A stretch of 64,000 bases of DNA from Polaromonas sp. (GTDB lineage: Bacteria > Pseudomonadota > Gammaproteobacteria > Burkholderiales > Burkholderiaceae_C), in NCBI GenBank assembly GCA_025362315.1, contig JANYGP010000040.1:1-64000 (forward strand). Direction: 5' to 3'. Under the pieces are notes generated by a model. That model was not told the origin of the DNA, searched no databases, and saw only the letters and a program-made list of their open reading frames with translations. Shown here one piece after another: positions 2,957 to 63,845 of the stretch (positions within the stretch are counted from its first letter, which is position 1; each line of letters opens with the position of its first letter). The position numbers and the translations under genes are program-made.

Positions 2957-4297
2957 TTATCGCTGGCTCTGTTTGACAGCCCGCCATAACAATGCCAACA
3001 GGCAGGCAGCAACACAAACCAGCGCCCATGTGGCTGCCAGCCAAAAACTGGCCGGATTCAAACTGGCCGGTTTGCCCGCCAACCCGACATGGGTCAGAAC
3101 ATAACCCCCATACAAACCCAGGCCCCAAAGCAGCATGCCGTACACCAGCAGCGGCGCAATCGTGATCCGGTAGCACCGAAGTAAAAAAGCACACATGGCT
3201 TGCGAGCTGTCTGCCAGGTGATACAAGGCAACCCATCCCAGCAGTACAGAAGCCTGGGCGATGATGCCAGGACTGGTTGAATACAAAGATGCCAGATAAT
3301 TTTTTGCTATTAATAATGTAGCTGCTAGCGCACATGAAATAACAGCTGCAAGCTTGATTCCCACCATAACCACCTGTTTCGCCTGCTTCGGCTTCCCCGC
3401 CCCTAACCACAATGATGTGCGCGCGCTGCATGCAATGGCAATCGACAAAGGCATCATGTAGAGCACTGCTGCCATGCTGGCTGCAATCTGGTGACTGGCC
3501 AAAGCGCTGGTGCCCAGTCTGGCGATGAACAAAGCCATCAGCGTGAACGACGTGACTTCCACCAGATAAGCCATCCCACCCGGCAAACCCAGCCGCGCAA
3601 ACCTGGCAATTGCAAGCCATTCGGGTCGCTCCATGGGCCGCCAGACCGCAAAGGGTTTGTACACGGCCTGCGTTTTGAGCATCACCACGCACAAAGCCAG
3701 CAACAGGTAATTCACCACCAGCGTGGCCCATGCGCAACCAACTGCACCCATCGGCTCCACGCCAGCACCGCCAGCCACCAGCCAGATGGACAAAGGTATT
3801 TTTACAGCGAGTGCGCCCAGTTGGAGCCAGGTGACAAAAAACGGTTTGCCCAGCGACTGGTTGAAAGTGCTGTACAGCCTGAAAAGCAGGGCAGGCACGA
3901 AAGCAAATGCCAGCACCGTCAGATAGTTTTGAACTTCCTGCAACATGTTGTCGGGCACCTGAGCCCACCTTAACAGTGGCGCCGGAAACAAAAGCACGGC
4001 AATGCCCACCACTGAAATCAAACCAGCCAGATAAAGACTTTGCCGCACAGATTTGCCAATCGCCGCGCTTTGTCCCGCGCCCAGCATTTCAGCCCAGATT
4101 GGCAGCAGCGCCTGCACAATGCCCATCAGCCCAACATACACGCTGATGTAAATGGCAGAACCTACCGACAAAGCGGCCAGGGCAGTGTCGCTGTAGCGTC
4201 CGGCAATCACAGTGTCAGCCACGCCAAACGCCATCACGGCAAGCTGGCCTGCCAGCACAGTGCCCGCGTGGCGGACAATTATTTTCAGCTCGCTCAA
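2957..4297 (-). CDS. MATE family efflux transporter
   Basis: Inner-membrane multidrug/toxin exporter of 446 residues, expected to use an H+ or Na+ gradient. About twelve hydrophobic segments arranged as two similar halves match the MATE (NorM/DinF) family; the N-terminal half has GVADTVIAGRYSDTALAALS, a typical MATE first-helix signature. Its ATG overlaps the stop of the upstream membrane glycosyltransferase-like gene by 4 nt, so both are probably co-transcribed. The substrate cannot be told from sequence. A copy of the dispersed motif (3304-3345) lies inside the gene and coincides with an AT-rich run of codons encoding part of a membrane helix, without breaking the frame. Confidence 0.9.
   Translation of the reverse strand: MSELKIIVRHAGTVLAGQLAVMAFGVADTVIAGRYSDTALAALSVGSAIYISVYVGLMGIVQALLPIWAEMLGAGQSAAIGKSVRQSLYLAGLISVVGIAVLLFPAPLLRWAQVPDNMLQEVQNYLTVLAFAFVPALLFRLYSTFNQSLGKPFFVTWLQLGALAVKIPLSIWLVAGGAGVEPMGAVGCAWATLVVNYLLLALCVVMLKTQAVYKPFAVWRPMERPEWLAIARFARLGLPGGMAYLVEVTSFTLMALFIARLGTSALASHQIAASMAAVLYMMPLSIAIACSARTSLWLGAGKPKQAKQVVMVGIKLAAVISCALAATLLIAKNYLASLYSTSPGIIAQASVLLGWVALYHLADSSQAMCAFLLRCYRITIAPLLVYGMLLWGLGLYGGYVLTHVGLAGKPASLNPASFWLAATWALVCVAACLLALLWRAVKQSQR
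3304..3345 (+). repeat. Dispersed motif copy 1 (intragenic, MATE)
   Basis: TTGCTATTAAT followed by AGCTGCTAGCGCACAT; the left half matches the family well, while the GGGCTA half is lost. The frame of the host gene is intact. Confidence 0.6.
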
Positions 4298-6042
4298 GGT
4301 GTTTTTGAGCTGTTGGCGCTGCCTGGTACACGCCGATAAACCAGCAGCGTTTCGTTTTTGTCAGCGGGTCTGCGCAGCGTTGCCATGAAAGCCCAATCCG
4401 GCAAATTGACACGATTGGCAAGTGTGGGTTGAGCGTCGGCATCCACGATCAGGTAAGGGCAATTTGCGTCAGCAGTTGCCTGTCGCAGATGCAATTGCCC
4501 GTGGTATTGCAGGGCTGCTGCCTGTGCGCTGGTCAAACCGTAGATCTCGGTACAAGCGGCCGGGCCAATCACCTTGGCCACTTGCCGTGCCATGGGCGCA
4601 TAACTGCGTGCATAGTCAAGCAACGGCAACCACAATGACATCAGCAGCAGCCAGCACAGCGTTGCGCCACCGGCAGGCAATACAAGAGATTTCCACACTG
4701 CGGAGCGATGCGCACCAACACGCCATCTCACCAGCCAAACCCAGGCCATCGTTGCCAGCAGCGCTATAACAAAAGCAAACACTGAAAAACTGGGCTCAAA
4801 CCCGGGCGCCAGTTTGGCGACATTGGCAGCGGGTTGCCGTGGAACGCCGGTTTGCATGGCGATCCAGATGACCCAGATGATGATGCCGCAACCCGTGAAA
4901 AACAGCAGGGTAAACCAGTCAATCAGCGAAGCAACCGAGCGCTTGAAAGTGGGCAGCGCAAAAGCCGCCAGCGCTGCCAGTGGCACCAGGCCCAGCAGCA
5001 GGCTGCGGTCGGCTGCAGGCGTTACCAGCGCAGAAGCAATGGCAACCATCGAAAACCACAGCGGCAATGCGACATGCCTGCCGGCCAGCTGTTTGCGCCA
5101 GCGCCAGAGTGTCCACAGTGCCAGCGGCCAGGCAGGCCAGGTAAACCACAGCAGCAACCGGGTCAGTTTGCGCCACTCGGTCCAGGCATCTGACCCCGTG
5201 ATGGGAAGCCACTGGACACGCCAGCGCCACAAGTCCAAAACCACGGCAAGCCCGGCCGAAAGCGCAGTAGCGGCCACAATCAGTACCACCCATTGCAGTG
5301 ATTGCTGCCGTGTCTCTGTATCTGACAGTTTGCCTGCCTGGTGCCAGCGCACGGTTTCTACAAAAGCGCCGCCACATCCCAGTAAAACAGCAATTGTGGG
5401 TGCGCCACTCAGGGCCAGACCAGTTACACCCAGCAGCAGCCCCAGAGCTGGCCCCAGCAACTTTGTCGCGCGGCGATACGGGCTGACTGCCAGCGCGTAG
5501 AACACCAGGGAAACAGAGCCCAACTGGGCCAGGGCAGGCGTTGTTTCGTGCGACAGCTGCGCCAGCCCCAGGCTGGCGATCAACGCCAATAAGCCTGCAT
5601 CGGCAATGGCGCGCGCATAGTCTGTCGGACTGGCTTCGCCGCCAAATGCAAAAGCCACAGGTTGTGCCTGTGGGCTGCGCGCCAGATAGTAAATGGCATA
5701 CCAGGTGTTTAACAACGTGAAAGCAAGCAGTGCCATGAATGGCACCCGCACTGCAAACGCCGGATCTAAAAAGGGCAGCAGCTTGATTGCCAATGCACCC
5801 AGCCAAAAGGGCAACAACGCATCAAATCCATTCGCGACTCCCAACAGCTGTGGAGTCAGCCAATCGGCTCTGTTCAGAGCCAGCTCCTGCATGACGCCAA
5901 ACGAAGCAATGTCGTCCACTTTCCAGGGCGCACGTCCAAAAAACCCCGGCAAGATATAGGCCACGCAAAACAGCAGCAGCGCAAGACGCGGCAGTCGGCG
6001 TACAGCCGACTGGGCGATGATGGCAGGGGAGGGCTTGTTCAA
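4294..6042 (-). CDS. ArnT-like GT-C family membrane protein
   Basis: Large membrane protein of 582 residues with roughly a dozen hydrophobic segments and a short soluble C terminus. The first loop after the N-terminal membrane segment reads GRAPWKVDDIASFG, which resembles the acidic catalytic loop of GT-C glycosyltransferases (ArnT/PMT, family 39). These use polyprenyl-phosphate sugars to modify lipids or proteins on the periplasmic side. The family assignment is by motif and topology; donor and acceptor are unknown. It forms an overlapping pair with the downstream MATE gene. Upstream, an intrinsic terminator separates it from rpmE2, so it should have its own promoter. Confidence 0.7.
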   Translation of the reverse strand: MNKPSPAIIAQSAVRRLPRLALLLFCVAYILPGFFGRAPWKVDDIASFGVMQELALNRADWLTPQLLGVANGFDALLPFWLGALAIKLLPFLDPAFAVRVPFMALLAFTLLNTWYAIYYLARSPQAQPVAFAFGGEASPTDYARAIADAGLLALIASLGLAQLSHETTPALAQLGSVSLVFYALAVSPYRRATKLLGPALGLLLGVTGLALSGAPTIAVLLGCGGAFVETVRWHQAGKLSDTETRQQSLQWVVLIVAATALSAGLAVVLDLWRWRVQWLPITGSDAWTEWRKLTRLLLWFTWPAWPLALWTLWRWRKQLAGRHVALPLWFSMVAIASALVTPAADRSLLLGLVPLAALAAFALPTFKRSVASLIDWFTLLFFTGCGIIIWVIWIAMQTGVPRQPAANVAKLAPGFEPSFSVFAFVIALLATMAWVWLVRWRVGAHRSAVWKSLVLPAGGATLCWLLLMSLWLPLLDYARSYAPMARQVAKVIGPAACTEIYGLTSAQAAALQYHGQLHLRQATADANCPYLIVDADAQPTLANRVNLPDWAFMATLRRPADKNETLLVYRRVPGSANSSKTP

Positions 6043-6098
6043 AACGAATATGACTTTACAAGACTATTTTTTTCAGTCAATTCTGGCAACAGCAGGCG

Positions 6099-8592: not shown

Positions 8593-11160
8593 ATGACTCT
8601 GAGAGCCAATTCCGCCAACACCACCAACCCTGCCAGTGCTGCCTGGCTTGAGGTCATGGCTCAATTGGCAGACCTGCTGCTTGCCAGGCGCATACACCCA
8701 TCACGCACAGTGGTGCTGGTGCCTTATGCCCAGCTGATTCAGCAGGCCCGGCTGGCCTGGACCAGCTTGAGCGCCATTGAAAACAGTTTTTTCATGCCGC
8801 GTTTTGAAACGACCATGAATTGGGCCAATGCGCTGCCCGGCCCGGCATTGCTGGCAGACGACATCCAGATGAACTGCGCAATAGACACATTGACCGCTGC
8901 CAGTCTTTTGAAAAGGGCGGGGCTCGCGGCACGCCAGCATGAGCTGACGGGCAGGCTGCTTGACGCTGCCCTCTCGCTGGCCCCGATTGCGGCAGCACAA
9001 GTACCAGGCGAACGCCTGGCCTGGGGCGCACGCCTGGCCAACGACATCATTGCCAGCATGGACAGCCCTGCCCTGGTGCTGGAATTGGCTATTGCCCGGA
9101 TTGCCCTGGCGTGGGCTTCGGCGTCCAACTACCCGACAGACGTTTTGTTCAATGCGCAGCCTGACTTGCTCGTGGTGATTGAAGGTTTCCAATCTGACCC
9201 GTTGACCGAATCGCTCAAAACGCATTTTGGCCATCGCGCTGCCAGCCTGCAGCTTGTCACGCCCCTGACATCCACCCCCGCCGTGACGCCCACAACGCAA
9301 GGGCAGGTCACACTGCACGCTGCGGCTGACCTGGAAGTCGAAGCGCAGCTGGCGGCGGCTTGCGTGCTGACGCACCTTGCAGCTGGATTGAGCCCGGTTG
9401 CGCTGGTGGCGCAAGACCGCTTGCTGACCCGCCGCGTGCGTGCCATGCTGGCGGGCAAAGGCGTGGTGATGCGCGACGAAACCGGTTGGAAGCTGTCGAC
9501 GACCCGCGCCGCTGCCACCGTGATGGGGTTGCTGCGTGCCGTGACCTGGGACGCGCCAGGCGATGCTGTGCTGGACTGGCTCAAAAATGCGCCTGCATTT
9601 GATGCGCGCATGCTGGCAAGATTTGAAGCTGCGCTGCGCAAATTGGGCATTGCCCAGTGGCACGCAGTGCCTGCAGAATTACCTGAATTCAAGGCTGTTG
9701 TTGCCCAGGCGGCGCTGTGCCGGGATGCATTTCAGCGCAGCCGCCCCATTGCCCAATGGCTGAGCGAGCTGCGCAGCGCTTTGGTGCAAACGGGCCAATG
9801 GCCAAGCTTGGCAGGCGACACCGCGGGCCTGGCTGTGATTGCAGCGCTGCACATGGAAAGCGAGCAGACAAACAGCAAGGCACTGCCCGCCAACCCGCGC
9901 ATGAGCCTTCATGAGTTCACCCAATGGGTCAACCAGGCGCTGGAAGCAGCCAGTTTTACGCCGGTTCATCCGCCCCACGCCCACGTGGTCATTCTGCCGT
10001 TGAGCCAGTTGTTGGGCCGCTCACTGGGCGCAGTGGTGATGCCCGGGTGCGATGAGCTTCGTTTTGATGTGTCGCCCGAGCCGCCCGGGCCGTGGACGCC
10101 TGCGCAGCGGCTGGTGCTTGGTTTGCCCAGTCGGGTAGAGCTGGCGCGCAACCAGCGCGCCGCCTGGCAACATGCGCTCGGCATGCAGCATATGGATGTG
10201 TTGTGGCGGCAAAGCGAAGGAGGCGACAGCCTGATGCCCAGCGGCTTTGTGCAGGAGCTGCTGCTCAGGCAAAAGCTGATGCAGCAACCTGCACCCCCGG
10301 CACGCGACCCAAGGCCGCAGCGCACAGTGGTCTTGCAGCCGGTGCTGCCGCCTCAAGCCAGCGGCCATGCCTTGCCAATGTCCCGGCTGTCGTCCACCGC
10401 GTATGAAGACCTGCGGCGCTGCCCCTACCGCTTTTTTGCGCTGCGCCAGCTCAAGCTGCAGGAAGCCCACGAGTTGCAAGAAGAAATCAGCAAACGTGAC
10501 TTTGGCAACTGGCTGCATTTGCTGCTCAATGACTTTCACATTGCCTTGAAAAATGAACAAAATACCGCTGTAGCCCAATCATCACTGGCGCGAACAGCTA
10601 TGCTAAACATAGCGGCAACCCAGGCCACGGAAAAGCTTGGCCTGAGTGACGAAGAGTTTTTGCCATTTGCCGCGATGTGGCCACGGGTGCGCGACAACTA
10701 TCTTTTATGGCTGGCCGGCCATGAAGCCACGGGTGCCACCTATGTTGAAGGCGAGGTGTGGAAAAGCGTGCAGCTGGGGGACATCGAGCTGGTTGGCAAA
10801 ATCGACCGCATCGACCAGCTACCCGATGGCAGCCGGCTGGTGATCGATTACAAAACCGAACCCCGCACCACAACGCAAGCCCGGATCAAAGACAAGAGCG
10901 AAGACTCGCAACTGACGTTTTACGCCGCGCTGCTGGACGACGACACGCTGGCTGCGGCGTACGTTAGCTTGAGTGAAAAAGAACCGACCAAAACCTGCGA
11001 GCAACCCGACATTGTTGGGCTGCGCGACGATTTGATCAGCGGGATTGTCAGTGACCTGCAGCGGATTGCGGCAGGCACGCTGCTGTCTGCGCTGGGTGAA
11101 GGCAAGGCGTGCGAGTTTTGCGCCGCGCGCGGCCTGTGCCGCAAGGATTTCTGGGTGTGA
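8593..11160 (+). CDS. AddB-like PD-(D/E)XK nuclease, FeS type
   Basis: 855-residue subunit of a double-strand-break resection enzyme, acting with the AddA-like helicase encoded next. The N-terminal and middle parts resemble an inactivated helicase fold. The C-terminal nuclease domain shows LVGKIDRIDQL...LVIDYKTE (catalytic Asp and Glu/Lys region, about residues 735-755). Four Cys fit the AddB iron-sulfur staple: RRCPYRFF before the nuclease, and CEFCAARGLC at the extreme end. The GTGA overlap with the next gene indicates coupling. A copy of the dispersed motif (10560-10618) is embedded in frame before the nuclease domain. The symbol addB is left open because proteobacterial forms are divergent. 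Confidence 0.85.
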   Translation: MTLRANSANTTNPASAAWLEVMAQLADLLLARRIHPSRTVVLVPYAQLIQQARLAWTSLSAIENSFFMPRFETTMNWANALPGPALLADDIQMNCAIDTLTAASLLKRAGLAARQHELTGRLLDAALSLAPIAAAQVPGERLAWGARLANDIIASMDSPALVLELAIARIALAWASASNYPTDVLFNAQPDLLVVIEGFQSDPLTESLKTHFGHRAASLQLVTPLTSTPAVTPTTQGQVTLHAAADLEVEAQLAAACVLTHLAAGLSPVALVAQDRLLTRRVRAMLAGKGVVMRDETGWKLSTTRAAATVMGLLRAVTWDAPGDAVLDWLKNAPAFDARMLARFEAALRKLGIAQWHAVPAELPEFKAVVAQAALCRDAFQRSRPIAQWLSELRSALVQTGQWPSLAGDTAGLAVIAALHMESEQTNSKALPANPRMSLHEFTQWVNQALEAASFTPVHPPHAHVVILPLSQLLGRSLGAVVMPGCDELRFDVSPEPPGPWTPAQRLVLGLPSRVELARNQRAAWQHALGMQHMDVLWRQSEGGDSLMPSGFVQELLLRQKLMQQPAPPARDPRPQRTVVLQPVLPPQASGHALPMSRLSSTAYEDLRRCPYRFFALRQLKLQEAHELQEEISKRDFGNWLHLLLNDFHIALKNEQNTAVAQSSLARTAMLNIAATQATEKLGLSDEEFLPFAAMWPRVRDNYLLWLAGHEATGATYVEGEVWKSVQLGDIELVGKIDRIDQLPDGSRLVIDYKTEPRTTTQARIKDKSEDSQLTFYAALLDDDTLAAAYVSLSEKEPTKTCEQPDIVGLRDDLISGIVSDLQRIAAGTLLSALGEGKACEFCAARGLCRKDFWV
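10560..10618 (-). repeat. Dispersed motif copy 2 (intragenic, addB-like)
   Basis: On the minus strand it reads GCTATGTTTAGCATAGCTG, then TTCGCGCC, then GATTGGGCTACAGCGG. Both halves of the family are recognisable. The host frame is intact. Confidence 0.65.
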
Positions 11161-14100
11161 CTGAAGCCGCTTATACCCACAACGGCCAGCCCATCGCCGC
11201 CGAGGCGTTTTATGCCATTGCCTGCGACCCGCGCCGCAGCGTCGCCGTGGAGGCCTGTGCAGGCGCCGGCAAAACCTGGATGCTGGTGTCGCGCATGGTG
11301 CGGGCGCTGCTGGACGGGCAAACCCAGCCGCATGAAATTTTGGCCATCACCTTCACCAAAAAGGCTGCGGGTGAGATGCGGGAACGGCTGTACGACTGGC
11401 TGGCCGAGTTTGCTCAGGCAGACGATGAAACCCTGGCAAAAGAGCTTGAAATCAGGGGTTTGAACGATAAAAACGGCCTGCAGTCCAATGAAAATGGGCG
11501 CAAGCAGCTATTAAATTTATACCAGCAGGTGCTGACTCATGGTCGTCAGGTACAGATCAGGACTTTTCACAGTTGGTTTGCGGCGCTGCTGCACACCGCA
11601 CCCATGGCCTGCCTGCAGCAGCTTGGCCTGCCGCTGGATTACGAGTTGCTTGAAGACGACGCGCCGGCCAAGGCGCTGGTCTGGCGGCGGTTTTACGGCG
11701 CCTTGCTCAAGTCCCCTAAGCTGAAAGCCGATTTTGAAGCTGTGGTGCAAACCCATGGCCGCTTTCAGACTGAGAAGGCGTTGAGCGGCGCGCTGGACAA
11801 ACGCAGCGAGTTCATGTTGGCTGATTCTGCCGGCGTGGTGGACGTGTCAGTGCAGCATTTTTCAGTTGTGTTTCCTGACTTTGCGCATCTGGCCCATCCG
11901 CACGATGCACTGGTGGCCGGGCCGGTCAACACACTTTTTCTGGCAGCTGCAAAAGTGCTGGGCACGGCAAGTGCTCGCACAATTTCAGCTGCAGGTGTCG
12001 AGCTGGAGCGTGCCCTGAGCCTGGGAGATGCTGACGCAGCGCTGTCAGCACTGCTGACCGACAAAGGCTCGGCACGCAAATTCAACGACAAAATTGTGGG
12101 TCTGGAAATTATTCGCCAGGCGCAAGACGCAGCACTGCGTGTGCTCGCTGCAGCCTCCCAACATCATGCCTGGGACTACCAGCTGCGCATGGCACGCCTG
12201 AGCAGGCTGCTGCTGGCCGAATTTGCAGCCCTCAAGCGCCAGCGTGGCTGGGTTGACATGAACGATGTAGAGCGCGCTGCCCAGGTCATGCTGTCTGACA
12301 CGGTGCTGTCCGGCTGGGTGCAGGAGCGGCTGGACGCCAACATCCGGCACCTGATGATTGACGAGTTTCAGGACACCAACCCACTGCAGTGGCAAGCGCT
12401 GTCCAACTGGCTCAGCGGGTATGCAGGTGCGTCCCGCGCACCAGGTGTTTTTATTGTGGGCGACCCCAAACAAAGCATTTACCGCTTCAGGCGTGCCGAG
12501 CCGCAAGTGTTCATTGCGGCCCAGCGCTTTATGCGGGACGCCCTGGGCGGCGATGTGCTGGCGTGCGACCACACCCGGCGCAGCAGCCACGCGGTTGTTG
12601 CCACTGTCAACACGGTCATGGCTGAAGCACAGCGCAACAACAATTACGACGGTTTTCGGGCGCATACCACGGCGTCAGGCGAGGCGGGCAGGGTGCTCAG
12701 GCTGCCTGCAATTTTGCGGGCCGACCACAAACAGGCGCCTGGCTTGCTAAATGCACAAGATGCCCCAGACGCCCATGAAACCGGTCCATGGCGCGACAGC
12801 CTGGACACGCCGCGCGAGCTGCTGGATGAAACGCTAAAAACACTTGAAGCGCGGCAGGCAGCAGCGTGGATCAAAAGCCAGATCGACAGCGGTATTGCAC
12901 CTGCTGACGTGATGGCTTTGAGCCGCAGGCGCTCCAGCTTGCTGCCGTTGCTGGTCGAGCTGCGCGCCTTGCATGTCCCCGCCCAGGTAGGCGAGAAAAC
13001 CCGGCTGATTGACTGCTGCGAAGTCCAGGACATGGTGGCACTGCTGGATGTGCTGGTGTCGCCGCAACATGACCTGTCGCTCGCACGCGCACTGCGCTCG
13101 CCGCTGTTCAATGTCAGCACAGATGCGCTGGTTGAAATTGTTCTGGCAATCAACGAAGCGCAGGGCCATGAGCAGGATCATGATCAAGGTCATGATCAAG
13201 GCGGCAACTCCACCAAACCAAAGCTGTCATGGTATGAACTGCTACAAACAAAGGAGCTGTCAGCGCCCGGATTGATTGGGCTGGGTAGTGTTTTAACCAC
13301 TTACAAAGCCCTCCTGGACGCCTTGCCACCGCACGATGCGTTGCAAGCCATCTTTGACCAGGGCGACGTGCTGGCGCGCTACGGTGCGGCCGCACCGGCT
13401 GCCAGCCGCGCGGCGGTGCTGTCCAATTTGCAGTCGCTGTTGACCCAAGCATTGCAGGTTGACGGTGGCCGGTATGCCACGCCTTATGCGTTTGTGCGGG
13501 CGCTGAAAGCGGGTGGCCTGCAGGCACCTGCAGCTGTCAACCCTGATGCAGTGCGTTTGCTGACCATTCACGGTGCCAAGGGTCTGGAGGCGCACGCCGT
13601 GCTGTTGCTCGACACCGACACGGCTCCCCGCCCGGCCGACAGCATGAGCGTGCTGGTTGACTGGCCGGGCGAAGCGCCAGCACCCCAAAAATTTGTGTTT
13701 TTAGTGAGCGAAAAAACACCGCCTGCCTGTGCTGCCAGCACCCTGGCAAATGAGCAGGCAGCCCGGGCCCGGGAAGAGCTCAATGCGCTCTATGTGGCCA
13801 TGACGCGTGCCAAAAACACGCTGGCGATTTCATCAATCGAGCCGTTTCGCGCAGCACCCAGCAGCTGGTGGCAGCGGCTTTGCCCGTTGGCAGACATAGC
13901 AGAGGTGCTGCCGCCGCCACTGCTTGCACCCGGCACAACGCAATCTCAGGCAACTTTCTGTCTGCCTGGATTGCCGGCTTTTATCAGCAACTTTGACGCT
14001 GCGCCCCCGTTAGCGCTTGAGGCAGACACGCCCAGCGCCCAAATTGGCAAAGCCATGCACCGGCTGCTCGAATGGCATGATTTTTCAGACGAGGCAGTCA

Positions 14101-15420: not shown

Positions 15421-15482
15421 AGTAGTTATTTTATTGGTCAAATAGGTTGTTAGCGCCCACAAAATGGGCGTCAACAGCTACT
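15421..15482 (+). repeat. Dispersed motif copy 5 (leuA leader)
   Basis: Weaker copy: TAGTTATTTTATTGG, then TTAGCGCCC, then AATGGGCGTC, between the attenuator and leuA. It lies in the leuA 5' UTR, close to the AGGAG at 15488-15492. Confidence 0.45.
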
Positions 15483-15498
15483 AAAACAGGAGTATTTC

Positions 15499-18314: not shown

Positions 18315-18342
18315 GCTTCTGAGCTTCTGAGCTTCTGAGCTT
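18304..18342 (+). repeat. 8-bp tandem repeat over the pbpG stop codon
   Basis: TGAGCTTC occurs 4.9 times in tandem. The first unit encodes the last residues and the TGA of the second unit (18312-18314) is the stop codon. Gain or loss of later units would not change the protein. Confidence 0.9.
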
Positions 18343-18400
18343 GCTATTCTTTGAGTAGCTGTCAGCGCAATGATTGTATAGGCTGTACGCGATTTCAATG
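18341..18400 (+). repeat. Dispersed motif copy 6
   Basis: TTGCTATTCTTTGAGTAGCT, then GTCAGCGC, then ATAGGCTGTACGC. It starts at the end of the 8-bp repeats, between pbpG and the IclR gene. Confidence 0.6.
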
Positions 18401-18436
18401 CCTGAAAACGGCATTTTTCAGACCAGAAGCCAGTTG

Positions 18437-23219: not shown

Positions 23220-23359
23220 GGCGCTAAAAAAGTTGAAGTTGTGTTCACCACTTTGCCTTCCAGCCGGCAATCGAAAATTGGTCAGCGCGCTGCACGGCTT
23301 GCCAATCAAAAAGCAGCTGGATGAAAGTCGCCAGCCACTTTTTCATTCAAAACCTATGT

Positions 23360-23421
23360 TTGCTATTAATTAAATAGCTGCTTGCGCACATAAATAGAGC
23401 GCTAGAGGCCTTAAAAATGCC
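23360..23421 (+). repeat. Dispersed motif copy 7
   Basis: TTGCTATTAATTAAATAGCT, then GCTTGCGCACATAAAT, then GCGCTAGAGGC. One of the best intergenic copies, with the left arm GCTATT...AATAGC palindromic. Confidence 0.85.
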
Positions 23422-23427
23422 TAAGAG

Positions 23428-23457
23428 CTGGCTGATCTGGCTGATCTGGCTGATCTG
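23428..23457 (+). repeat. 9-bp tandem repeat
   Basis: GCTGATCTG three times in tandem (23431-23457), preceded by CTG and flanked by AGCTGGC/GCCAGCT, which are themselves complementary. Confidence 0.85.
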
Positions 23458-23502
23458 GCCAGCTGACGCGCCAAATGGACTGCCAAGAGGAGCTTGAAGG
23501 CA

Positions 23503-23569
23503 AAATATTTCGTATTCGCCCTACAGTCCAATGGATATATGCGCTTGCAGCTGCTAAATTTGTAGCGCT
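23503..23569 (-). repeat. Dispersed motif copy 8
   Basis: Minus strand: GCTACAAATTTAGCAGCTGC, then AAGCGCATATAT, then ATTGGACTGTAGGGC. It lies 25 nt downstream of the truncated vapC. Confidence 0.65.
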
Positions 23570-23594
23570 TACCTTGCTTGAAGGGCGTTACCAT

Positions 23595-23882
23595 TCACCG
23601 AATACGGCGCACCTCAACCCCCACAGCCTTGGCCACTTGCAGCCAAGGCTTGTCGGCCGTCAAAACCACCGCTTTTTTGGCGCGCGTCAGTGCCAGGCAG
23701 GCGCGGTCACCTAATGACAGCCCAACCGTCCGCGTTATGCTCCGCACCCAAGCGGCATCGGCTGATTGCGTTTCGTCGAGTGCCACGATTTGCAGCTCGA
23801 CGGATGTCATGACGGTCGCCGCATCTGCTGGGCTTAGGCGGTTGGTCAACGTTGCGGTGCTTGCCGTGTGTGCATACAGCAC
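23595..23882 (-). pseudogene. Truncated VapC PIN-domain toxin
   Basis: The last 80 or so residues are nearly identical to the intact VapC at 24656-25078: LSPADAATVMTSVELQ, VGLSLGDRACLAL, VVLTADKPWLQV. The N-terminal third, with the first catalytic Asp and Glu, is missing. Its 5' end overlaps the last 37 nt of the RelE/ParE-type toxin gene, so a recombination junction lies around 23850-23880. It retains only half the PIN active site and should be inactive. Confidence 0.85.
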
Positions 23883-24136
23883 AGTACCAGCAATTGGCTG
23901 TCTTCAACTTTGTAAAGAACTGAATACGGAAAGCGTTTTAATAAAACACGTCGCACCTCTTGATGTACTTCAGGGGCAGCAAAAGGATTGCGCGCTATTC
24001 GGTTGATGGCCGACTCGAGGCAGCGAGCAAACTCATCACCCAAGCCTTGCCGCTGCAGGTCGTACCAGGCTTTTGCAGCAACTACCTGCGCATCGGCGCT
24101 GGTGCGAAAAACAACGGTTAGCGTCAATCGGCTCAA
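23846..24136 (-). CDS. RelE/ParE-type toxin
   Basis: 96-residue toxin of the RelE/ParE superfamily: TVVFRTSADAQVVAAKAWYD, then FARCLESAINRIARNPFAAP, then VRRVLLKRFPYSVLYKVED. ParE members poison gyrase and RelE members cut mRNA; which applies cannot be told. It starts at ATG 24136, overlapping the antitoxin stop by 4 nt. Its C terminus (CCMHTRQAPQR) runs into the truncated vapC and may have been altered by that junction, so activity is uncertain. Not to be confused with topoisomerase parE at 54.6 kb. Confidence 0.85.
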   Translation of the reverse strand: MSRLTLTVVFRTSADAQVVAAKAWYDLQRQGLGDEFARCLESAINRIARNPFAAPEVHQEVRRVLLKRFPYSVLYKVEDSQLLVLCCMHTRQAPQR

Positions 24137-24351
24137 TCAATTTGCAAATGAGTTTTGACGGTGCTCCAAGGCACGACTTCTTGAGGGCTGGCGCGGTGCT
24201 CGGCCAAGCGTTTTTCTATCTCTGCAACTTCATGGGTTTTGAGGGGCTGCACCGCCGCCTCCTGTGCCACGCTGTCCCACAGGTCTTCGGCCAGTTCAAT
24301 GCGTTCGGCAGCGCTTAAGGACAACAGCGCTTGCAGGTCTGACTTTCCCAT
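24133..24351 (-). CDS. Addiction-module antitoxin of RelE/ParE-type pair
   Basis: 72-residue small acidic protein of the Pfam Unstab_antitox (TIGR02574) type: LLSLSAAERIELAEDLWDSV is the family hallmark. It should neutralise the toxin encoded immediately downstream (4-nt overlap) and may autoregulate the pair. ATG 24351 (MGKSDLQALL) is supported by AAAGGAG; the open frame extends to 24399. Confidence 0.9.
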   Translation of the reverse strand: MGKSDLQALLSLSAAERIELAEDLWDSVAQEAAVQPLKTHEVAEIEKRLAEHRASPQEVVPWSTVKTHLQID

Positions 24352-24426: not shown

Positions 24427-24482
24427 GTGCTAGTAAATAAATAGCTGCTTGCGCATATAAATACTGGGCTAGAGGTCTAAAA
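24427..24482 (+). repeat. Dispersed motif copy 9
   Basis: TGCTAGTAAATAAATAGCTG, then CTTGCGCATATAAAT, then CTGGGCTAGAGG. A strong intergenic copy. Confidence 0.85.
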
Positions 24483-24568
24483 TAGATCTAAAAATCGCCT
24501 TAATTCACGCAATCTGGCGGTTTTCTGAGGCAAATAGACGGCGTACGAGCTGATTAAAAACCAAAAAC

Positions 24569-24631
24569 CCGTTATTTAGCGCTACAGCCCAATGAATACG
24601 TGAGCGTATAACTCCTAAATTCGTAGCATAT
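24569..24631 (-). repeat. Dispersed motif copy 10
   Basis: Minus strand: ATGCTACGAATTTAGGAG, then ACGCTCACGTAT, then ATTGGGCTGTAGCGC. It lies 25 nt downstream of vapC, the same spacing as copy 8 to the truncated vapC. Confidence 0.65.
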
Positions 24632-27894: not shown

Positions 27895-28025
27895 CGTTGT
27901 TGACCGAACACTTCATTTCAATATATTGGCCTTGATTGCCAAGTTTTGTAGGATAAATTCCCCTGTGGCGGGGCTGCACAGCAGCCCACTTCCGCTTGAT
28001 TCCTTGAAAACACCATTTTTGAGTA

Positions 28026-28083
28026 TCAAATATGCCTATAGCCCAATTAATACGAGCGCAAGCAGCTCCCAAATATATAGCAT
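28026..28083 (-). repeat. Dispersed motif copy 11
   Basis: Minus strand: ATGCTATATATTTGGGAGCT, then GCTTGCGCTCGTATTAAT, then TGGGCTATAGGCATATTTGA. Together the clearest full-length example of the family. Confidence 0.88.
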
Positions 28084-31857: not shown

Positions 31858-32973
31858 TTGACAACCCATTCATTTCACAAACTTGCTGTGGCCAGCGTTG
31901 AAGTGCTGACGCGTGACAGCATGGCCATCACATTTAACGTGCCCGAGCATCTGGCGGGCACTTTCGCCTACGTGCAAGGCCAGTACGTCACGCTGCGCAC
32001 GGTGATTGATGGCGAAGAGGTGCGGCGTTCGTATTCGATATGTTCAGCAGTGCAAGACAAACGCCTGCGGATTGCTATTAAAAAAGTAGCTGGTGGCGCA
32101 TTCAGTACCTGGGCTACAGGCTATTTACTGCCTCGGTCAACGATTGACGTGATGCCGCCGCAAGGCAATTTTCACATTCCGATCCAGCCAGACGCCGCCC
32201 GCCATGTGATGGCTTTTGCCGCAGGCAGCGGCATCACGCCGATGCTGTCGATCATCAAAACCACGCTGATGGCCGAGCCACTCACCCGCATCACACTGGT
32301 GTACGGCAATCGCTCATCGGGCAATGTGATGTTCAAGGAAGAGCTGCAGGATTTAAAAGACACCTACCTGGACCGCTTCAATCTGACGTGGGTCATGAGC
32401 CGCGAGACACAGGACATTGAGTTGTTCAATGGGCGGATTGATTACGAAAAAACCAGCGAGTTGCTGGGTCGATGGATAAATTCGACAGCTGGCTCAGCCA
32501 ATTTCGACGCCTCCTTTATTGACGCAGCTTTTATTTGCGGACCGCACGATATGATGCTGGCCGTTAGCCGCGCTTTGCAAGACAAAGGCATCGACAAATC
32601 ACGCATCAAAGCGGAGCTGTTTGGAACAGGCGTGTCCACCCAGCCCAGAGCGATGCAAACGGTCGCGCCAGGAGACGAGCCGTGTGAAGTTGAAGTCGTG
32701 CTCGACGGCAGCCGCCACAGCTTCAGCATGGCCAAAAACGGCATCAGCCTGATCGATGCCGGACTGAAAGCAGGCATTGACATGCCTTACGCCTGCAAGG
32801 GCGGCGTGTGCTCAACCTGCCGCGCACAGGTGCTGTCTGGCGAGGTCGATATGGACAACAACTATGCCCTGGAAGACTACGAAGTCGCCCGCGGCTTTGT
32901 GCTGTGCTGCCAGAGCTTTCCGGTGTCCAATAAACTGGTGATTGATTTTGACCAGGAGCACATTCATGCATGA
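31858..32973 (+). CDS. paaE: Phenylacetyl-CoA epoxidase reductase PaaE
   Basis: NAD(P)H-dependent reductase that passes electrons to PaaABC. It has an FAD domain (RRSYSICS), an NAD domain (AGSGITPMLSIIK) and a C-terminal plant-type [2Fe-2S] ferredoxin (CKGGVCSTCRAQ, plus VLCCQ). Start TTG 31858 is forced, as the next ATG would remove conserved sequence. A dispersed-motif copy (32071-32128) spans the codons of the family-typical segment IAIKKVAGGAFSTWATGYLL. Confidence 0.94.
   Translation: MTTHSFHKLAVASVEVLTRDSMAITFNVPEHLAGTFAYVQGQYVTLRTVIDGEEVRRSYSICSAVQDKRLRIAIKKVAGGAFSTWATGYLLPRSTIDVMPPQGNFHIPIQPDAARHVMAFAAGSGITPMLSIIKTTLMAEPLTRITLVYGNRSSGNVMFKEELQDLKDTYLDRFNLTWVMSRETQDIELFNGRIDYEKTSELLGRWINSTAGSANFDASFIDAAFICGPHDMMLAVSRALQDKGIDKSRIKAELFGTGVSTQPRAMQTVAPGDEPCEVEVVLDGSRHSFSMAKNGISLIDAGLKAGIDMPYACKGGVCSTCRAQVLSGEVDMDNNYALEDYEVARGFVLCCQSFPVSNKLVIDFDQEHIHA
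32071..32128 (+). repeat. Dispersed motif copy 12 (intragenic, paaE)
   Basis: ATTGCTATTAAAAAAGTAGC, then TGGTGGCGCATT, then CCTGGGCTACAGGCTATTTA. Both halves match, yet the encoded peptide is the usual PaaE sequence without insertion. Codons (GTA, AGT, ACA, TTA) are unlike those of the surrounding gene. Confidence 0.7.
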
Positions 32974-35700: not shown

Positions 35701-35764
35701 AATATCAACGAATATAGCCGTAGCGCTTGAAATACGGGCGCAAGCAGCTATTCATTAAATAGCA
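35701..35764 (-). repeat. Dispersed motif copy 13
   Basis: Minus strand: TTGCTATTTAATGAATAGCT, then GCTTGCGCCCGTAT, then GCGCTACGGCTATATT. It sits 3 nt before the end of the SDR gene. Confidence 0.8.
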
Positions 35765-35767
35765 ATC

Positions 35768-40250: not shown

Positions 40251-40855
40251 CGGATCTGACGGCAGCGCAAAGGGCGTGATCAAGATGTTGCGATTCGTCT
40301 TGTGCTGAGAAAAACATGCTGTGTCGGCCAATTGGTCACCATGCTTGCAAGGCAATGTTTTTGGAGCGAAATAAGCCTTAGGCCCATGATATATGTGCGC
40401 AAGCAGCTCCTGAATTAATAGTAAACAAGGTCCTATGAAAGGGTTGTGCTTTGCAGTTCGGTTTCAACACGCTTGTTATAGACTGCCGTACGGCGCGATT
40501 TTCAGGAGTTGACCACGACCACACCCGTAGCTGAACGGGTTGAAAACGCCGCATGCCGCTTCGCCTGGCTGGACTGCACCCGGTACATATCTGGGTAGCA
40601 GACACTTGATTGCCAGGCTTTGTGATCCAGTGCAAGCGTCAATCCAGTTTGGTCGGCCAGTTTGACTTGCCAGATGCAGAACTGCACACCTGGATGGACA
40701 ATCAGCAGTTCTTTGCTGGTATTTGGCGGTATTTTTAGGCATAGCGCGCTTGACAGCAAAATCGTTTGAATCAGCCATCATTTCAAGTTAAATTAATCAG
40801 GCGCAACAGGTGCCGATAATTCGATTCTCTGCTTGCCCTATTTTTAAATACCATT
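40251..40855. other. 605-nt region with a possible decayed gene
   Basis: No intact gene is convincing. On the minus strand a frame from 40759 reads protein-like sequence (HPGVQFCIWQVKLADQTGLT), stops at TGA 40502, then continues in the same frame with RTAVYNKRVETELQ to a TAG near 40433. It could be a pseudogene or chance. A dispersed-motif copy lies at 40368-40428. No terminator with a T run was seen after the ABC gene. Confidence 0.35.
40368..40428 (-). repeat. Dispersed motif copy 14
   Basis: Minus strand: TTTACTATTAATTCAGGAGC, then TGCTTGCGCACATATAT, then ATGGGCCTAAGGCTTATTT. Full-length copy. Confidence 0.82.
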
Positions 40856-41746: not shown

Positions 41747-43006
41747 ATGCGCCGCATTGCACACCTGGACATGGATGCGTTTTTCGCATCCATCGAGTTG
41801 CTGCGCTACCCGCAGCTCAAGGGTTTGCCAGTGGTGATTGGCGGTGGCAGACGCAAGGTGGATGATGCACTTTTAACTGCCCAGCCCGAGCGCGACCTGC
41901 GTTTTATTCCGGTGGCTGATTTCCCGCTGCTCAAAGACTATGTGGGGCGCGGCGTCATCACCACAGCCACCTATGCTGCACGGCAGTTTGGGGTCGGCTC
42001 GGCCATGGGCATGATGAAAGCGGCCAAATTGTGCCCGCAGGCAATTGTTCTGCCGGTTGATTTTGACGAGGTTCGCAAGTATTCGCGGCTGTTCAAAAGC
42101 ACCATTGTTGAAATCGCGCCGCAGATGGAAGACCGGGGTGTTGACGAGGTGTACATTGACTTTACCGATGTACCGGGCGGCCAGCGGGAGGGAGGGCGTG
42201 TATTGGCCAGGCTGATTCAAAAAGCCATCACTGAAGCAACAGGCCTGACCTGTTCAGTCGGCGTGGCCCCCAACAAATTGCTAGCCAAGATGGCCAGTGA
42301 ATTCAACAAGCCAAATGGCATTTCAGTCGTTCATGAAACAGACCTGCAAAACAAAATCTGGCCGCTGACCTGCCGGAAAATCAATGGCATTGGCCCCAAG
42401 GCAGATGAAAAATTGCAGGCGCTTGGCATTCACACAATTGGCGAGCTGGCCGTGCTGACGCCGGAATTTTTAATCCGTCATTTCGGCAAAGCCACCGGGG
42501 CGTGGATGCATGAAGTGGCCTGGGGCCGGGACGAGCGCCCTGTTGTGACCAGCAGCGAGCCTGTCAGCATGAGCCGTGAAACCACATTTGCACGTGACCT
42601 GCACGCCGTGCGTGACAGGGCAGAGCTTGGCAATATCTTTACAGGCCTGTGCATCAAACTGGCCCACGACCTGGCGAGCAAGGGATATGCCGCCAAAACC
42701 ATTGGGATCAAATTGCGCTACGACGACTTCAAAATAGCCACACGGGACCAGACGCTCGTCGGCCACACGCACGATGCTGCGGTCATCCGGCAGACTGCAG
42801 GCCAGTGCCTGAAGCGCGTACCGCTTGGCAAGAAGCTGCGGTTGCTGGGGGTACGTGCCGGGACGCTTGAAAAAACTGAAAATTTGCCCGAAAACCCCGA
42901 AAAAGGTATATTTAATGCATCAAATATGCCTGACGCCTATATAAAACGGTCGCTAATAGCTCCTGAAAATATAGCTAATGATGCACTGACCCGTCAGCTG
43001 TTTTGA
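41747..43006 (+). CDS. dinB: Y-family DNA polymerase (DinB/Pol IV-like)
   Basis: 419-residue translesion polymerase. Catalytic motifs: HLDMDAFFASIE (metal Asp), YIDFTDV and the VDEVYIDFTD block, SVGVAPNKLLAKMASEFNKP, then a helix-hairpin-helix (INGIGPKADEKLQALGIHTI). The C terminus ends DALTRQLF, which could serve as a beta-clamp-binding motif. The 12-nt gap to a convergent cytochrome gene is short. A dispersed-motif copy (42921-42977) forms most of the last 30 codons before the clamp motif. Confidence 0.9.
   Translation: MRRIAHLDMDAFFASIELLRYPQLKGLPVVIGGGRRKVDDALLTAQPERDLRFIPVADFPLLKDYVGRGVITTATYAARQFGVGSAMGMMKAAKLCPQAIVLPVDFDEVRKYSRLFKSTIVEIAPQMEDRGVDEVYIDFTDVPGGQREGGRVLARLIQKAITEATGLTCSVGVAPNKLLAKMASEFNKPNGISVVHETDLQNKIWPLTCRKINGIGPKADEKLQALGIHTIGELAVLTPEFLIRHFGKATGAWMHEVAWGRDERPVVTSSEPVSMSRETTFARDLHAVRDRAELGNIFTGLCIKLAHDLASKGYAAKTIGIKLRYDDFKIATRDQTLVGHTHDAAVIRQTAGQCLKRVPLGKKLRLLGVRAGTLEKTENLPENPEKGIFNASNMPDAYIKRSLIAPENIANDALTRQLF
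42921..42977 (-). repeat. Dispersed motif copy 15 (intragenic, dinB 3' end)
   Basis: Minus strand: AGCTATATTTTCAGGAGCTA, then TTAGCGACCGT, then ATATAGGCGTCAGGCATATT. It encodes NMPDAYIKRSLIAPENIA, in the variable C-terminal linker. Confidence 0.75.
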
Positions 43007-52296: not shown

Positions 52297-52887
52297 TTAA
52301 GCCAGCAGGTAGCGTATCGGCGTGGCAGTGGAACCCACTGATTTGGTTGCCGAATTGACAGCTGCGATGCGCTGGACAAATCGTGCCGCCGTTTTGTACG
52401 TCGCAGGATAAAAGCCATTTTCATAAGCCACAACAACCAGGTCCTGACAAGCTTCCAGCAATTCACCGGAACAAAGTAAAAAATCAGGTCGCGACGGTTT
52501 GCCGACAGTCTCATTGCCCTGGGCAAAAGTTTCATAAATCAACACGCCATCTGGCGCCAGGCTGGCCAGCAAAGTTGCCATCAAAGGTCGCCACAAGTAG
52601 TTTGTTACCACCACCGCGTCAAACTGTCTGCCCGGCAACGGCCACGGCCCATCTTCAATATCCGCAACCACTTTCTCGCAAAGATGTGCTTCAATTGGTA
52701 TGGATTCAATAGCTGCTTGCGCCCTATCTATCAGGGTAATCCGGTGATTTAGCCGGTGAAAATGCATGCTGTGGCGGCCATAACCACAAGCCACGTCCAG
52801 TACCGTACCTTTCGGCCTGACCAGGTGGGACCAGCGTTTGACCCAATCCGAAGGTGGCTCATTGCCGTGCAACTGTTCGTCTTTCAA
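52297..52887 (-). CDS. Class I SAM-dependent methyltransferase
   Basis: 196 residues with SAM-binding motif I VLDVACGYGRHSMHF, motif II (TLIDRAQAAI) with the acidic residue binding the ribose, and VVADIEDGPWPLPGRQFDAV. The substrate is unknown; TehB-like proteins are similar. A dispersed-motif copy lies over the motif II codons (52695-52745). Confidence 0.85.
   Translation of the reverse strand: MKDEQLHGNEPPSDWVKRWSHLVRPKGTVLDVACGYGRHSMHFHRLNHRITLIDRAQAAIESIPIEAHLCEKVVADIEDGPWPLPGRQFDAVVVTNYLWRPLMATLLASLAPDGVLIYETFAQGNETVGKPSRPDFLLCSGELLEACQDLVVVAYENGFYPATYKTAARFVQRIAAVNSATKSVGSTATPIRYLLA
52695..52745 (+). repeat. Dispersed motif copy 16 (intragenic, methyltransferase)
   Basis: TTGGTATGGATTCAATAGCT, then GCTTGCGCCCTATCTATC, then AGGGTAATCCGG. 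It holds the full core AGCTGCTTGCGC over the codons of motif II, with no insertion evident. Confidence 0.7.
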
Positions 52888-53005
52888 GGCAAGTTGACCT
52901 TATTTTTCAGCGTAGGCAAGACCCTATTTTTAACGCCAGTGGGGGTGCAATAACCCGCCAGTTGCTGCGACATTCCAACGTAAATGGCTTCGAAAGTCAA
53001 AGCAG

Positions 53006-53062
53006 TCACTATTATTTTCATAGCTGCCAGCGCCCGTATCAATTGGGCTAAGTGCTTAAATA
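53006..53062 (+). repeat. Dispersed motif copy 17
   Basis: CACTATTATTTTCATAGCTG, then CCAGCGCCCGTATC, then AATTGGGCTAAGTGC. It lies between the methyltransferase and the small membrane protein gene. Confidence 0.75.
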
Positions 53063-53095
53063 ACACTTGAAATGGTTCAAACTCACTGTACGAAC

Positions 53096-53227
53096 TCAAA
53101 AACAGGCCCAGACCTGGTTGGCCAGCACCACCAGAAAATCTGACTGCGTATACAGCGCAAATACTCCCAACAAAGCCGCTGTCGCCGCTAACCACGAAAG
53201 CGTTTGCACCAGGCGCGAACGGGTCAC
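53096..53227 (-). CDS. 43-residue single-pass membrane protein
   Basis: Reads TRSRLVQTLSWLAATAALLG and FALYTQSDFLVVLANQVWAC from GTG 53227, next to the MFS stop (53229-53231). It has one hydrophobic helix (about residues 8-25) and ends NQVWACF. I recall similar tiny proteins beside this transporter in related genomes. It might be an accessory subunit of the carrier. Longer start at 53281 would overlap the MFS gene. Confidence 0.65.
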   Translation of the reverse strand: MTRSRLVQTLSWLAATAALLGVFALYTQSDFLVVLANQVWACF

Positions 53228-59865: not shown

Positions 59866-59993
59866 GCTTCACAGGATCATTCGGAAGGCCCAATAACCGG
59901 AGCAAACCAGATCACGCCAGATGAGGCCAGATGAAGCCAACTGGCGCTGAGTGACACTGAATGATGCTGAGTGATGCTGAATAAATTTTGGAG
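59866..59993. repeat. Short imperfect repeats after parC
   Basis: Two sets of short near-repeats: CCAGATGA-type units (59920-59945) and GAGTGATGCTGA-type units (59950-59982). No gene or terminator was seen. Confidence 0.55.
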
Positions 59994-60053
59994 TTAAATA
60001 TGCTCTTGACGCCCATCATACGGGCGCAAGCAGCTATTGATTCAATAGCAATT
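59994..60053 (-). repeat. Dispersed motif copy 18
   Basis: Minus strand: ATTGCTATTGAATCAATAGC, then TGCTTGCGCCCGTATGATG, then GGCGTCAAGAGCATATTTAA. Its left end touches the stop of the following gene. Confidence 0.85.
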
Positions 60054-63452: not shown

Positions 63453-63470
63453 GGGCTTGGGGTGTTGCTG

Positions 63471-63845
63471 TCACGTCGTTACATGCGGGGCCAGGGCAAT
63501 GTCTGCCATCAACTCAATCAGGGCATTGTTTTCGCCAACGGTGGGCAAAAGCTCAAAGCCATTGGCGGGGTGAGCCGCCCGGATTTGCGCCATCAACAGC
63601 GGCAAGTCCTCCCGTGCATGCTTTCCGACGCCTAAAAATAACGGCAACACCCTTACATTACGGGCGCCAGCAGCTATCAAATCAGAAGCAGCTTCCTGCA
63701 GGGTCGGAGCGCACAGCTCAAGGTAAGCGCAGCGCACCAGCGCTTTTGGATCACGTTTGAGCATGCGCGCTGCAACGGCTTCAATTGGCAGCCGCCACAG
63801 CGAATCACGCGAGCCATGTGCAAAAAGAACAATGCCAGTTGTCAT
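63471..63845 (-). CDS. cbiX: CbiX/SirB-type chelatase
   Basis: 124-residue single-domain chelatase for cobalt or iron insertion into sirohydrochlorin. Catalytic His in GIVLFAHGSRD and second His in FLGVGKHAREDLP. Sirohaem is needed for sulfite reductase, fitting the CysB-like neighbour. A dispersed-motif copy overlays the codons of SDLIAAGARNVRVLPLFLG. Confidence 0.9.
   Translation of the reverse strand: MTTGIVLFAHGSRDSLWRLPIEAVAARMLKRDPKALVRCAYLELCAPTLQEAASDLIAAGARNVRVLPLFLGVGKHAREDLPLLMAQIRAAHPANGFELLPTVGENNALIELMADIALAPHVTT
63632..63687 (-). repeat. Dispersed motif copy 19 (intragenic, cbiX)
   Basis: Minus strand: TCTGATTTGATAGCTGCT, then GGCGCCCGTAATG, then AAGGGTGTTGCCGTTATTTT. The encoded peptide is typical CbiX sequence, not an insertion. 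Codons ATA, GTA, AGG, TTA, TTT stand out. Confidence 0.7.

Follow-up and report, generated by a model that had tools for sequence, protein, structure and literature searches.

In a 64,000-nucleotide stretch of Polaromonas sp. (assembly GCA_025362315.1, contig JANYGP010000040.1, positions 1 to 64,000; hereafter the window), a dispersed motif of ~56 bp occurs in both orientations. We found that in the related genus Rhodoferax the DNA of this motif is itself conserved at orthologous sites, both genic and intergenic, and that a single position of the motif has shifted at many unlinked sites. Based on these sequence comparisons, the copies probably belong to an unrecognized genome-wide DNA code, in which ~56-bp sites spaced every 5–7 kb would be read by a factor, would cost housekeeping proteins part of their sequence, and would have species dialects that shift in concert at most sites.

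The original prediction listed 19 positions in the window, one per 3.4 kb, and all of these are copies of the motif. A profile (A1) was built from 46 copies of the window's genome, including all 19 in the window, and was used with a threshold of E < 1e-3. Its search of the window gave exactly 19 matches, identical to those listed (weakest E 2.2e-7), although this detection is by construction because all 19 were rows of the profile. In two contigs that contributed no rows, we found 40 matches (C90:1-240000) and 30 matches (C91:1-160000). The profile scan thus confirmed an excess, with 89 matches in 464 kb (window, C90, and C91 stretches) versus none in the reversed DNA of the same 464 kb. Allowing one mismatch at most, the core AGCTGCTTGCGC is present 472 times in the 3.48-Mb assembly, compared with 14 times for the reversed word. 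Inside the window, the core alone is weak evidence (37 matches with at most two mismatches vs. 21.3 expected and 36 in the largest shuffle). With a sequence-only model, 150 of the 2039 first-look candidates were scored, and all 150 were significant (E 1e-17 to 4e-11). The density is one copy per 5.2 kb in the 464 kb, with the window being denser than C90 or C91; extrapolation from this density, rather than a count, gives ~670 copies per genome.

The conserved block covers 56 model columns in Rhodoferax, where the consensus is TGCTATcaATTTAGTAGCTGCTtGCGCAgatTCcACGgGGGCTAGaGgCctATTTG, and ~70 bp in the window's genome, where the same frame has a different middle (GCGCCC, an AT-rich part, and TGGGCTA). 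AT-rich blocks alternate with GC blocks, the motif holds 57–65 bits of information over 56 columns, and the copies are ~60–75% alike. The first arm had been described as palindromic, a description that is not supported by covariation: no variable column pair in this arm beats shuffled controls. One inner-stem pair (21-45) lies above every one of 2000 shuffles, and a further four have P values of 0.017–0.05. A structured RNA or hairpin was considered and rejected, as neither Rfam nor RNAalifold gave anything above threshold at the copies and arm 1 lacks covariation. The sole Rfam match in the window above the gathering score is a tRNA, and RNAalifold predicted only two pairs. A sub-threshold match to Thr_leader (24.1 bits vs. 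55, E 3.3) overlaps the copy at 15427.

The conservation of the motif was examined in stretches from Rhodoferax TS-BS-61-7 (TS; 280 kb), Rhodoferax TH121 (TH; 280 kb), and R. bucti (BU; 240 kb), which contain 38, 33, and 33 copies, respectively (best reversed-control E 0.25). Most of the located copies (78–96%) have a copy at the orthologous place in another stretch (TS to TH, 24/26; TS to BU, 22/27; TH to TS, 27/28; TH to BU, 21/27; BU to TS, 22/23; and BU to TH, 20/21), and aligned identity over the first 120–140 kb is ~83% between TS and TH and ~77% between TS and BU. Synonymous identity, taken at conserved residues, was compared in all six directions without requiring that the partner copy be detected. 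In these comparisons, which share data, synonymous identity in the motif and in its flanks was 0.86/0.60, 0.75/0.55, 0.75/0.55, 0.82/0.56, 0.86/0.61, and 0.78/0.56 (P 6.8e-6 to 2e-12). For amino acids the order is reversed, with identities of 0.66–0.77 in the motif and 0.80–0.90 in the flanks. Control windows from the same genes with matched low amino-acid identity had values of 0.53, 0.52, and 0.51, versus 0.86, 0.76, and 0.78 for the motif, and none of 5000 resamplings of matched windows reached the motif's synonymous identity in each of three pairs. For the intergenic copies (5–6 per pair), identity is 0.67–0.80 inside and 0.45–0.67 outside. The original prediction attributed the variation among copies to differences in age or constraint; the synonymous sites kept in orthologous Rhodoferax copies resolve this toward constraint.

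The second line of evidence is found at column 40 of the model. This position is G in 31 of 38 TS copies and 27 of 32 TH copies, and C in 28 of 32 BU copies (P = 4.8e-12, uncorrected). It is the strongest of the 56 columns, the next one having P = 2e-4. At shared sites, the pairing is G/C in 16 of 22 (TS–BU) and 16 of 21 (TH–BU), and G/G in 17 of 24 (TS–TH). For the 22 other variable columns, orthologous copies have identities of 0.77 (TS–TH), 0.65 (TS–BU), and 0.66 (TH–BU), compared with 0.41–0.43 for non-orthologous copies. Orthologous pairs down at the non-orthologous level number 0 of 24, 2 of 22, and 1 of 21, respectively. Because these locus-specific letters persist, whole copies have mostly not been overwritten. 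From the coordinated shift at column 40, we infer a trans-acting reader.

About half of the copies lie within genes, a feature that the original prediction did not mention. Open reading frames (ORFs) were taken from a simple hexamer ORF caller rather than from annotation, and host identities were checked against NCBIfam for 19 proteins, three of which had no family. Predicted ORFs enclose 43 of the 89 copies in the window's genome; another 34 are intergenic, and the remaining 12 overlap the end of a gene. Genes are therefore under-used yet far from avoided, since coding sequence makes up 89–92% of these stretches. The 46 copies not inside genes include 14 between convergent and three between divergent genes; for gaps of at least 75 bp, divergent ones are commoner than convergent ones (41 vs. 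27). In Rhodoferax, 21/38 (TS), 18/33 (TH), and 16/33 (BU) copies are in genes. Among the hosts, NCBIfam identifies AddA (two copies), AddB, DNA polymerase IV, NAD synthetase (NadE), FabD, DapF, GluQRS, KefC, aminopeptidase N, and PaaE. Reading frames are restricted: in the window's genome, 22 of 25 antisense copies are in one frame and the 18 sense copies are in two (13 and 5), and all 55 Rhodoferax in-gene copies are in two frames (39 antisense and 16 sense). The peptide encoded in the antisense frame is rich in Ala and Pro and resembles a linker. Antisense copies are enriched for rare codons, namely ATA (15 vs. 1.3 expected), CTA (13 vs. 1.1), and GTA (34 vs. 4.8).

Regarding their origin, 40 of 98 in-gene copies (43 from the window's genome and 55 from Rhodoferax) had a usable ortholog in a non-carrier; the other 58 were dropped for having no ortholog, no anchors, or an anchor span of >90 aa. 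Protein length at the site is within 5 aa of the non-carrier for 25 of the 40, differs by 6–13 aa for 10, and differs by at least 14 aa for five. These 40 include orthologs from the three Rhodoferax and so are not independent, and some of the linker alignments are loose. Length-neutral cases include AddA site 2, NadE of Rhodoferax, and proteins that we take to resemble DusA, methylmalonyl-CoA mutase, and hydroxyglutarate oxidase. In the window's genome, DapF, NadE, PgeF, aminopeptidase N, and FabD are longer at the site than their solved homologs. A gene at C91:87045-88412, presumably MoeA-like, has two motif matches, one of which comes with 35 additional residues relative to Caenimonas and Ramlibacter.

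The motif is common in Polaromonas and Rhodoferax. In a survey of 37 genomes reached through titled records, we counted the core (at most one mismatch) against its reversed word. The counts were 593/31 in Rhodoferax TS-BS-61-7, 478/20 in R. bucti, 440/90 in Polaromonas glacialis, 244/100 in Polaromonas JS666, 101/79 in Curvibacter HBC61, 199/171 in Caenimonas soli, 254/276 in Ramlibacter WS9, and 477/412 in Variovorax OK212. The exact core occurs 0 to 220 times per genome in a set of 60 genomes, each from a different genus of the family. Genome G015 (contig C1) has 220 exact cores and 18 Y1-transposase matches, several of them in fragments. Two profiles gave no match at E < 1e-2 in 1,045,062 bp of non-carrier DNA, comprising Caenimonas, Ramlibacter, and Curvibacter (400 kb together) and the same-genus genome G109 (645 kb). 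A blastn search of plasmids and phages with the 60-nt consensus gave no match, which is a weak null because the copies are only ~60–75% alike.

Individual sites also differ in their distribution. Within the window's genus, the copy at AddA site 1 is present in 11 of the 16 loci that cover the site, and that at site 2 in 12 of 19. The sites in NadE and in a gene that we take to be FemAB-like are common to the window's genome, Polaromonas, and Rhodoferax; the NadE site has no copy in the carrier Polaromonas JS666. Five genomes of the window's genus (G101, G103, G105, G109, and G119) have neither the extra GluQRS segment nor the motif there, which may reflect either loss of the motif or that it was never gained.

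The original prediction also raised the question of orientation relative to replication. No bias was found in the total counts of two genomes (R. bucti, 69/69; Polaromonas CG9_12, 25/33), in which the replication arms are unmapped. A strand bias suggested by a run of 24 plus-strand sites on contig C1 of R. bucti was rejected as a listing artifact in view of the whole count. The spread along one chromosome is even (56 sites, Kolmogorov–Smirnov P = 0.82). In private DNA, the observed versus expected numbers of copies are 3 vs. 18.3 in TH (P = 1e-5), 4 vs. 9.2 in TS (P = 0.048), and 3 vs. 5.6 in BU (P = 0.19), or 10 vs. ~33 over the three species.

We tentatively favor, as a possibility somewhat short of probable, that the copies are sites of one ~56-bp recognition signal with a drifting trans-acting reader, and that the driver is biased DNA uptake followed by recombination, as suggested by analogy with the uptake signal sequences (USS) of Pasteurellaceae and the DNA uptake sequences (DUS) of Neisseriaceae. 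Under this proposal, a trans-acting factor would read the sites and its preference would drift between species. Cells would prefer DNA of relatives that bears the signal, such that alleles nearer to the signal would keep replacing farther ones wherever linkers or the gaps between genes tolerate it. If the receptor changed, all sites would be drawn toward a new dialect. Such uptake and recombination, a process documented elsewhere, would jointly explain the retention of the DNA in permissive places, the frequent origin in place, the shared places, the lack of strand bias, the even spread along one chromosome, the scarcity in private DNA, and the dialect. The restricted reading frames and the presence of ComEC also count in its favor.

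Several observations weigh against this proposal. For 19 AddA genes (that of the window's genome plus those of 18 loci from its genus, a set in which carriers and non-carriers are pooled), the two sites have a synonymous identity of 0.50–0.53 versus a mean of 0.53. Across 37 NadE genes of Polaromonas and Rhodoferax, it is 0.604 versus 0.562 (rank 139 of 545 windows), and over all 80 NadE loci there is no synonymous rise (0.495 vs. 0.51). The constraint seen in Rhodoferax is thus absent or weak at wider distance. The depletion in private DNA is clear in TH only, and ComEC is not discriminating, being present in 10 of 10 genomes, including the three apparent non-carriers tested. A minority of the copies are, or look like, insertions. 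One TS copy corresponds to an 84-bp length difference relative to both TH and BU, the GluQRS segment has 100 residues in the window's genome versus 79–85 in five same-genus genes, and the FemAB-like gene of the window's genome is 14 to 19 aa longer at the motif; in-frame insertion is plausible at these sites. USS have a 9-bp core with two AT segments and a density of ~1/kb, compared with ~56 bp and one per 5–7 kb for the motif. Uptake has been demonstrated for USS and is proposed for the motif by analogy with USS and DUS. Among the matches listed in our literature search, no uptake signal of Comamonadaceae was found.

A rather unlikely alternative is that an abundant protein or complex of the chromosome, involved in nucleoid architecture, segregation, or repair, binds at the copies; selection would maintain a site every 5–7 kb where genes or gaps permit it, and the sites would co-evolve with the protein. 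Such an architectural-protein site accounts for most of the same features, as it predicts the same DNA-level conservation and the same coordinated column difference. The imperfect dyads and AT-rich blocks would suit it, the 57–65 bits might arise from binding by two or more subunits, and the spacing of copies has a coefficient of variation of 0.76–0.91 in five of six stretches (1.22 in TH), to which no significance is attached. However, the scarcity in TH private DNA and the patchy presence among genera suggest dispensability, single sites are missing in some carriers (e.g., NadE of Polaromonas JS666), and the protein itself is postulated. The length of the motif and the minority of insertions fit neither the uptake nor the architectural explanation perfectly.

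It is improbable that the copies derive from an old mobile repeat, similar to repetitive extragenic palindromic (REP) sequences or Rickettsia palindromic elements (RPE), that was perhaps moved by a single-copy REP-associated tyrosine transposase (RAYT), was inserted ancestrally, and has since been kept uniform by conversion or selection. The insertion-like cases in TS, GluQRS, and the FemAB-like gene agree with such a history, and a RAYT-type Y1 gene was found in 16 of 16 genomes searched. The letters [AG][TG]AG ahead of the core recall, in our view, the GTAG/GGAG of REPs, just as the in-frame coding copies recall RPEs. However, the positions are common across species, and 25 of the 40 in-gene copies examined lack an insertion-sized change. 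Furthermore, the RAYT-type gene also exists in apparent non-carriers, and a copy lies within the fetched 1.9–3.3 kb at 6 of the 13 RAYT loci in carriers, versus ~5–6 expected (an estimate from density). The RAYT, which adjacency had at first suggested as the source, was accordingly rejected, and the dispersed repeat with a source element that the original prediction envisaged is disfavored. The lack of covariation in arm 1, the column-40 difference at copies that otherwise remain locus-specific, and the location of about half of the copies in genes, unlike REPs, point the same way. A clean in-frame insertion of the RPE type is likewise weakened, because NadE and AddA have equal lengths in carriers and most non-carriers and most of the copies examined are length-neutral, but it stays plausible for some sites. 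In the window's genome, one RAYT-type Y1 gene (locus L184, contig C70) lies close to the end of a contig and has a copy of the motif ~180 bp upstream of its Y1 domain.

It is highly improbable that the copies are ordinary repeats in decay, or coding sequences alike by chance, that now serve no function, given the absence of matches in reversed DNA and in 1.05 Mb of non-carrier DNA, the synonymous conservation in Rhodoferax, and the coordinated column difference, even though AddA has no synonymous excess within the genus and several 20–26-bit in-gene matches fall where the protein is naturally conserved and may be partial or due to chance. The hosts of two such low-scoring matches are presumably a proton-pyrophosphatase and a MoeA-like gene.

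The 19 copies in the window are listed in Table 1. The peptide of the ORF at 63471-63845 resembles, we presume, CbiX. A duplication at 23360-24875, with its units ~1.06 kb apart, contains two inverted motif pairs and the DNA that follows them (81% identity over 300 bp; 23515-23814 vs. 24576-24875). Further inverted pairs of ~205–213 bp were found at C34:39675-39880 and C36 ~28099-28311 (the latter placed by its cores), and the inverted motif pair is a recurrent composite form. Synonymous identity peaks away from the motif at codons ~820–831 of AddA (window:11136-14471) and codons ~63–74 of NadE (ORF of locus L113), with values of 0.71–0.75 and up to 0.83 in Polaromonas/Rhodoferax. These peaks are perhaps other embedded signals.

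Table 1. Copies of the motif in the window. Scores are from profile A1; host families follow NCBIfam where named.
Position	Strand	Score (bits)	Location	Remarks
3303..3369	+	34.2	MATE-family transporter gene (2957-4297, -)	antisense
10548..10614	-	36.5	AddB-like gene (8593-11160, +)	antisense; +4 aa vs. Caenimonas, Ramlibacter
11456..11525	-	52.2	AddA-like gene (11136-14471, +), site 1	antisense; +4/+5 aa vs. Caenimonas/Ramlibacter
13238..13309	+	38.3	AddA-like gene (11136-14471, +), site 2	sense; length-neutral vs. Caenimonas, Ramlibacter
15427..15494	-	35.8	intergenic	
18341..18411	+	37.0	intergenic	convergent genes either side
23359..23427	+	50.9	intergenic	left half of inverted pair
23511..23567	-	33.6	intergenic	right half of inverted pair
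24428..24498	+	42.0	intergenic	left half of second (duplicated) inverted pair
24569..24630	-	32.8	intergenic	right half of second inverted pair
28014..28083	-	58.7	intergenic	top score in the window
32071..32130	+	37.5	PaaE-like reductase gene (31888-32973, +)	sense
35702..35766	-	47.7	intergenic	convergent genes either side
40356..40425	-	52.4	intergenic	
42910..42976	-	40.1	DNA polymerase IV-like gene (41747-43006, +), C-terminal end	antisense
52694..52764	+	37.0	predicted ORF (52297-52887, -)	antisense
53007..53075	+	45.4	short predicted ORF (52884-53195, -)	antisense; weak ORF call (score 17)
59985..60052	-	47.5	end of predicted gene	1-bp overlap
63638..63692	-	29.6	predicted ORF (63471-63845, -)	sense

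If the motif is an uptake signal, one more bacterial family would have sequence-specific gene exchange, its signal would exceed the known cores several-fold in length, and its dialects would predict the partners of gene exchange. It could then be the longest uptake or self-recognition signal and the first for Comamonadaceae. If it is a structural site, it would represent a chromosome-wide code so far unread, the site of a chromosome-organizing protein. Either way, DNA-level conservation exceeds protein conservation at these places in housekeeping genes, and the search for a reader becomes concrete. Annotators should bear in mind that the short, variable linkers of these proteins may represent signals at the DNA level.

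Among known repeats, REP sequences and the related REPINs are extragenic, short, and imperfectly palindromic, and occur in hundreds of copies together with a RAYT in the genome. The motif differs from these in its coding copies, its places common between species, the absence of a RAYT excess, and the lack of covariation in arm 1. RPEs are in-frame insertions in many unrelated protein genes. The motif is similar in being in frame in unrelated genes and dissimilar in that most of the copies examined are length-neutral within 5 residues. Chi- and KOPS-type sites are polar to replication; for the motif, the total strand counts, with replication arms unmapped, are balanced.

The original prediction knew no named repeat family with this consensus. 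We also found none, and neither AGCTGCTTGCGC nor GCGCAAGCAGCTA was found in the text of the literature searched. One paper probably lists part of one dialect: in Polaromonas naphthalenivorans CJ2, the pair ATAGCT(N)22CAAAAG has 125 copies, with 101 intergenic, 18 in genes, and six overlapping, and the available text gives it as a two-word motif of one species with no function assigned (PMC5217627). Its spacing equals that of the [AG]TAGCT ... CTAGAG columns of our motif. Two Polaromonas loci (L095 and L103; reverse strand, ~6574 and ~6509) carry the exact pair within sequence that resembles the motif, with ATAGCT(N)22CAAAAGGC followed by a T-rich end; the exact pair is absent from the 464 kb of the window's genome and from the Rhodoferax stretches. 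Because the spacing and neighboring letters fit and the context in L095 and L103 is motif-like, the CJ2 pair is probably a Polaromonas dialect of the motif. The same source reports 140 motif pairs in R. ferrireducens T118, more than in any other genome that it scanned (PMC5217627); a link between these and our motif would be a guess. The BRE repeats of Bordetella and Comamonadaceae, some of which lie wholly in genes, are ~90 bp long, average 69% GC in Bordetella, and are often in tandem, with 29 copies in Polaromonas JS666 and four in R. ferrireducens (PMC3110155). Compared by this description, the motif resembles BRE in family and in having in-gene copies, and differs from it in length, GC content, and tandem arrangement.

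The closest likeness is to USS and DUS, and the motif appears to evolve like them. Membership is not claimed, because their short core is not seen in the motif and the likeness rests on sequence comparison. According to the available text of these sources, USS and DUS have no orientation bias, are found in many ORFs, and originate by point mutation; they occupy permissive core-genome places, form dialects, and have an intragenic orientation bias (PMC1939737; PMC3630211; PMC1626085; PMC2346458). In H. influenzae, 65% of USS are in ORFs, with no orientation bias (PMC1939737), and a length test of a similar kind found that 24% of USS alignments were gapped (PMC1626085). As with the Pasteurellaceae USS, the motif has hundreds of copies on both strands, many of them in genes, with no orientation bias, subclade dialects, and AT-rich segments next to a GC-containing core; USS arise by substitution rather than insertion, and the length-neutral copies of the motif, unlike its insertion-like minority, may have done so too (PMC1626085; PMC1939737; PMC2346458). 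As with the Neisseriaceae DUS, whose dialects follow the species tree, it occupies permissive core-genome places (PMC3630211). Unlike the motif, for which a reader is postulated, DUS are 10–12 bp long and are bound by ComP.

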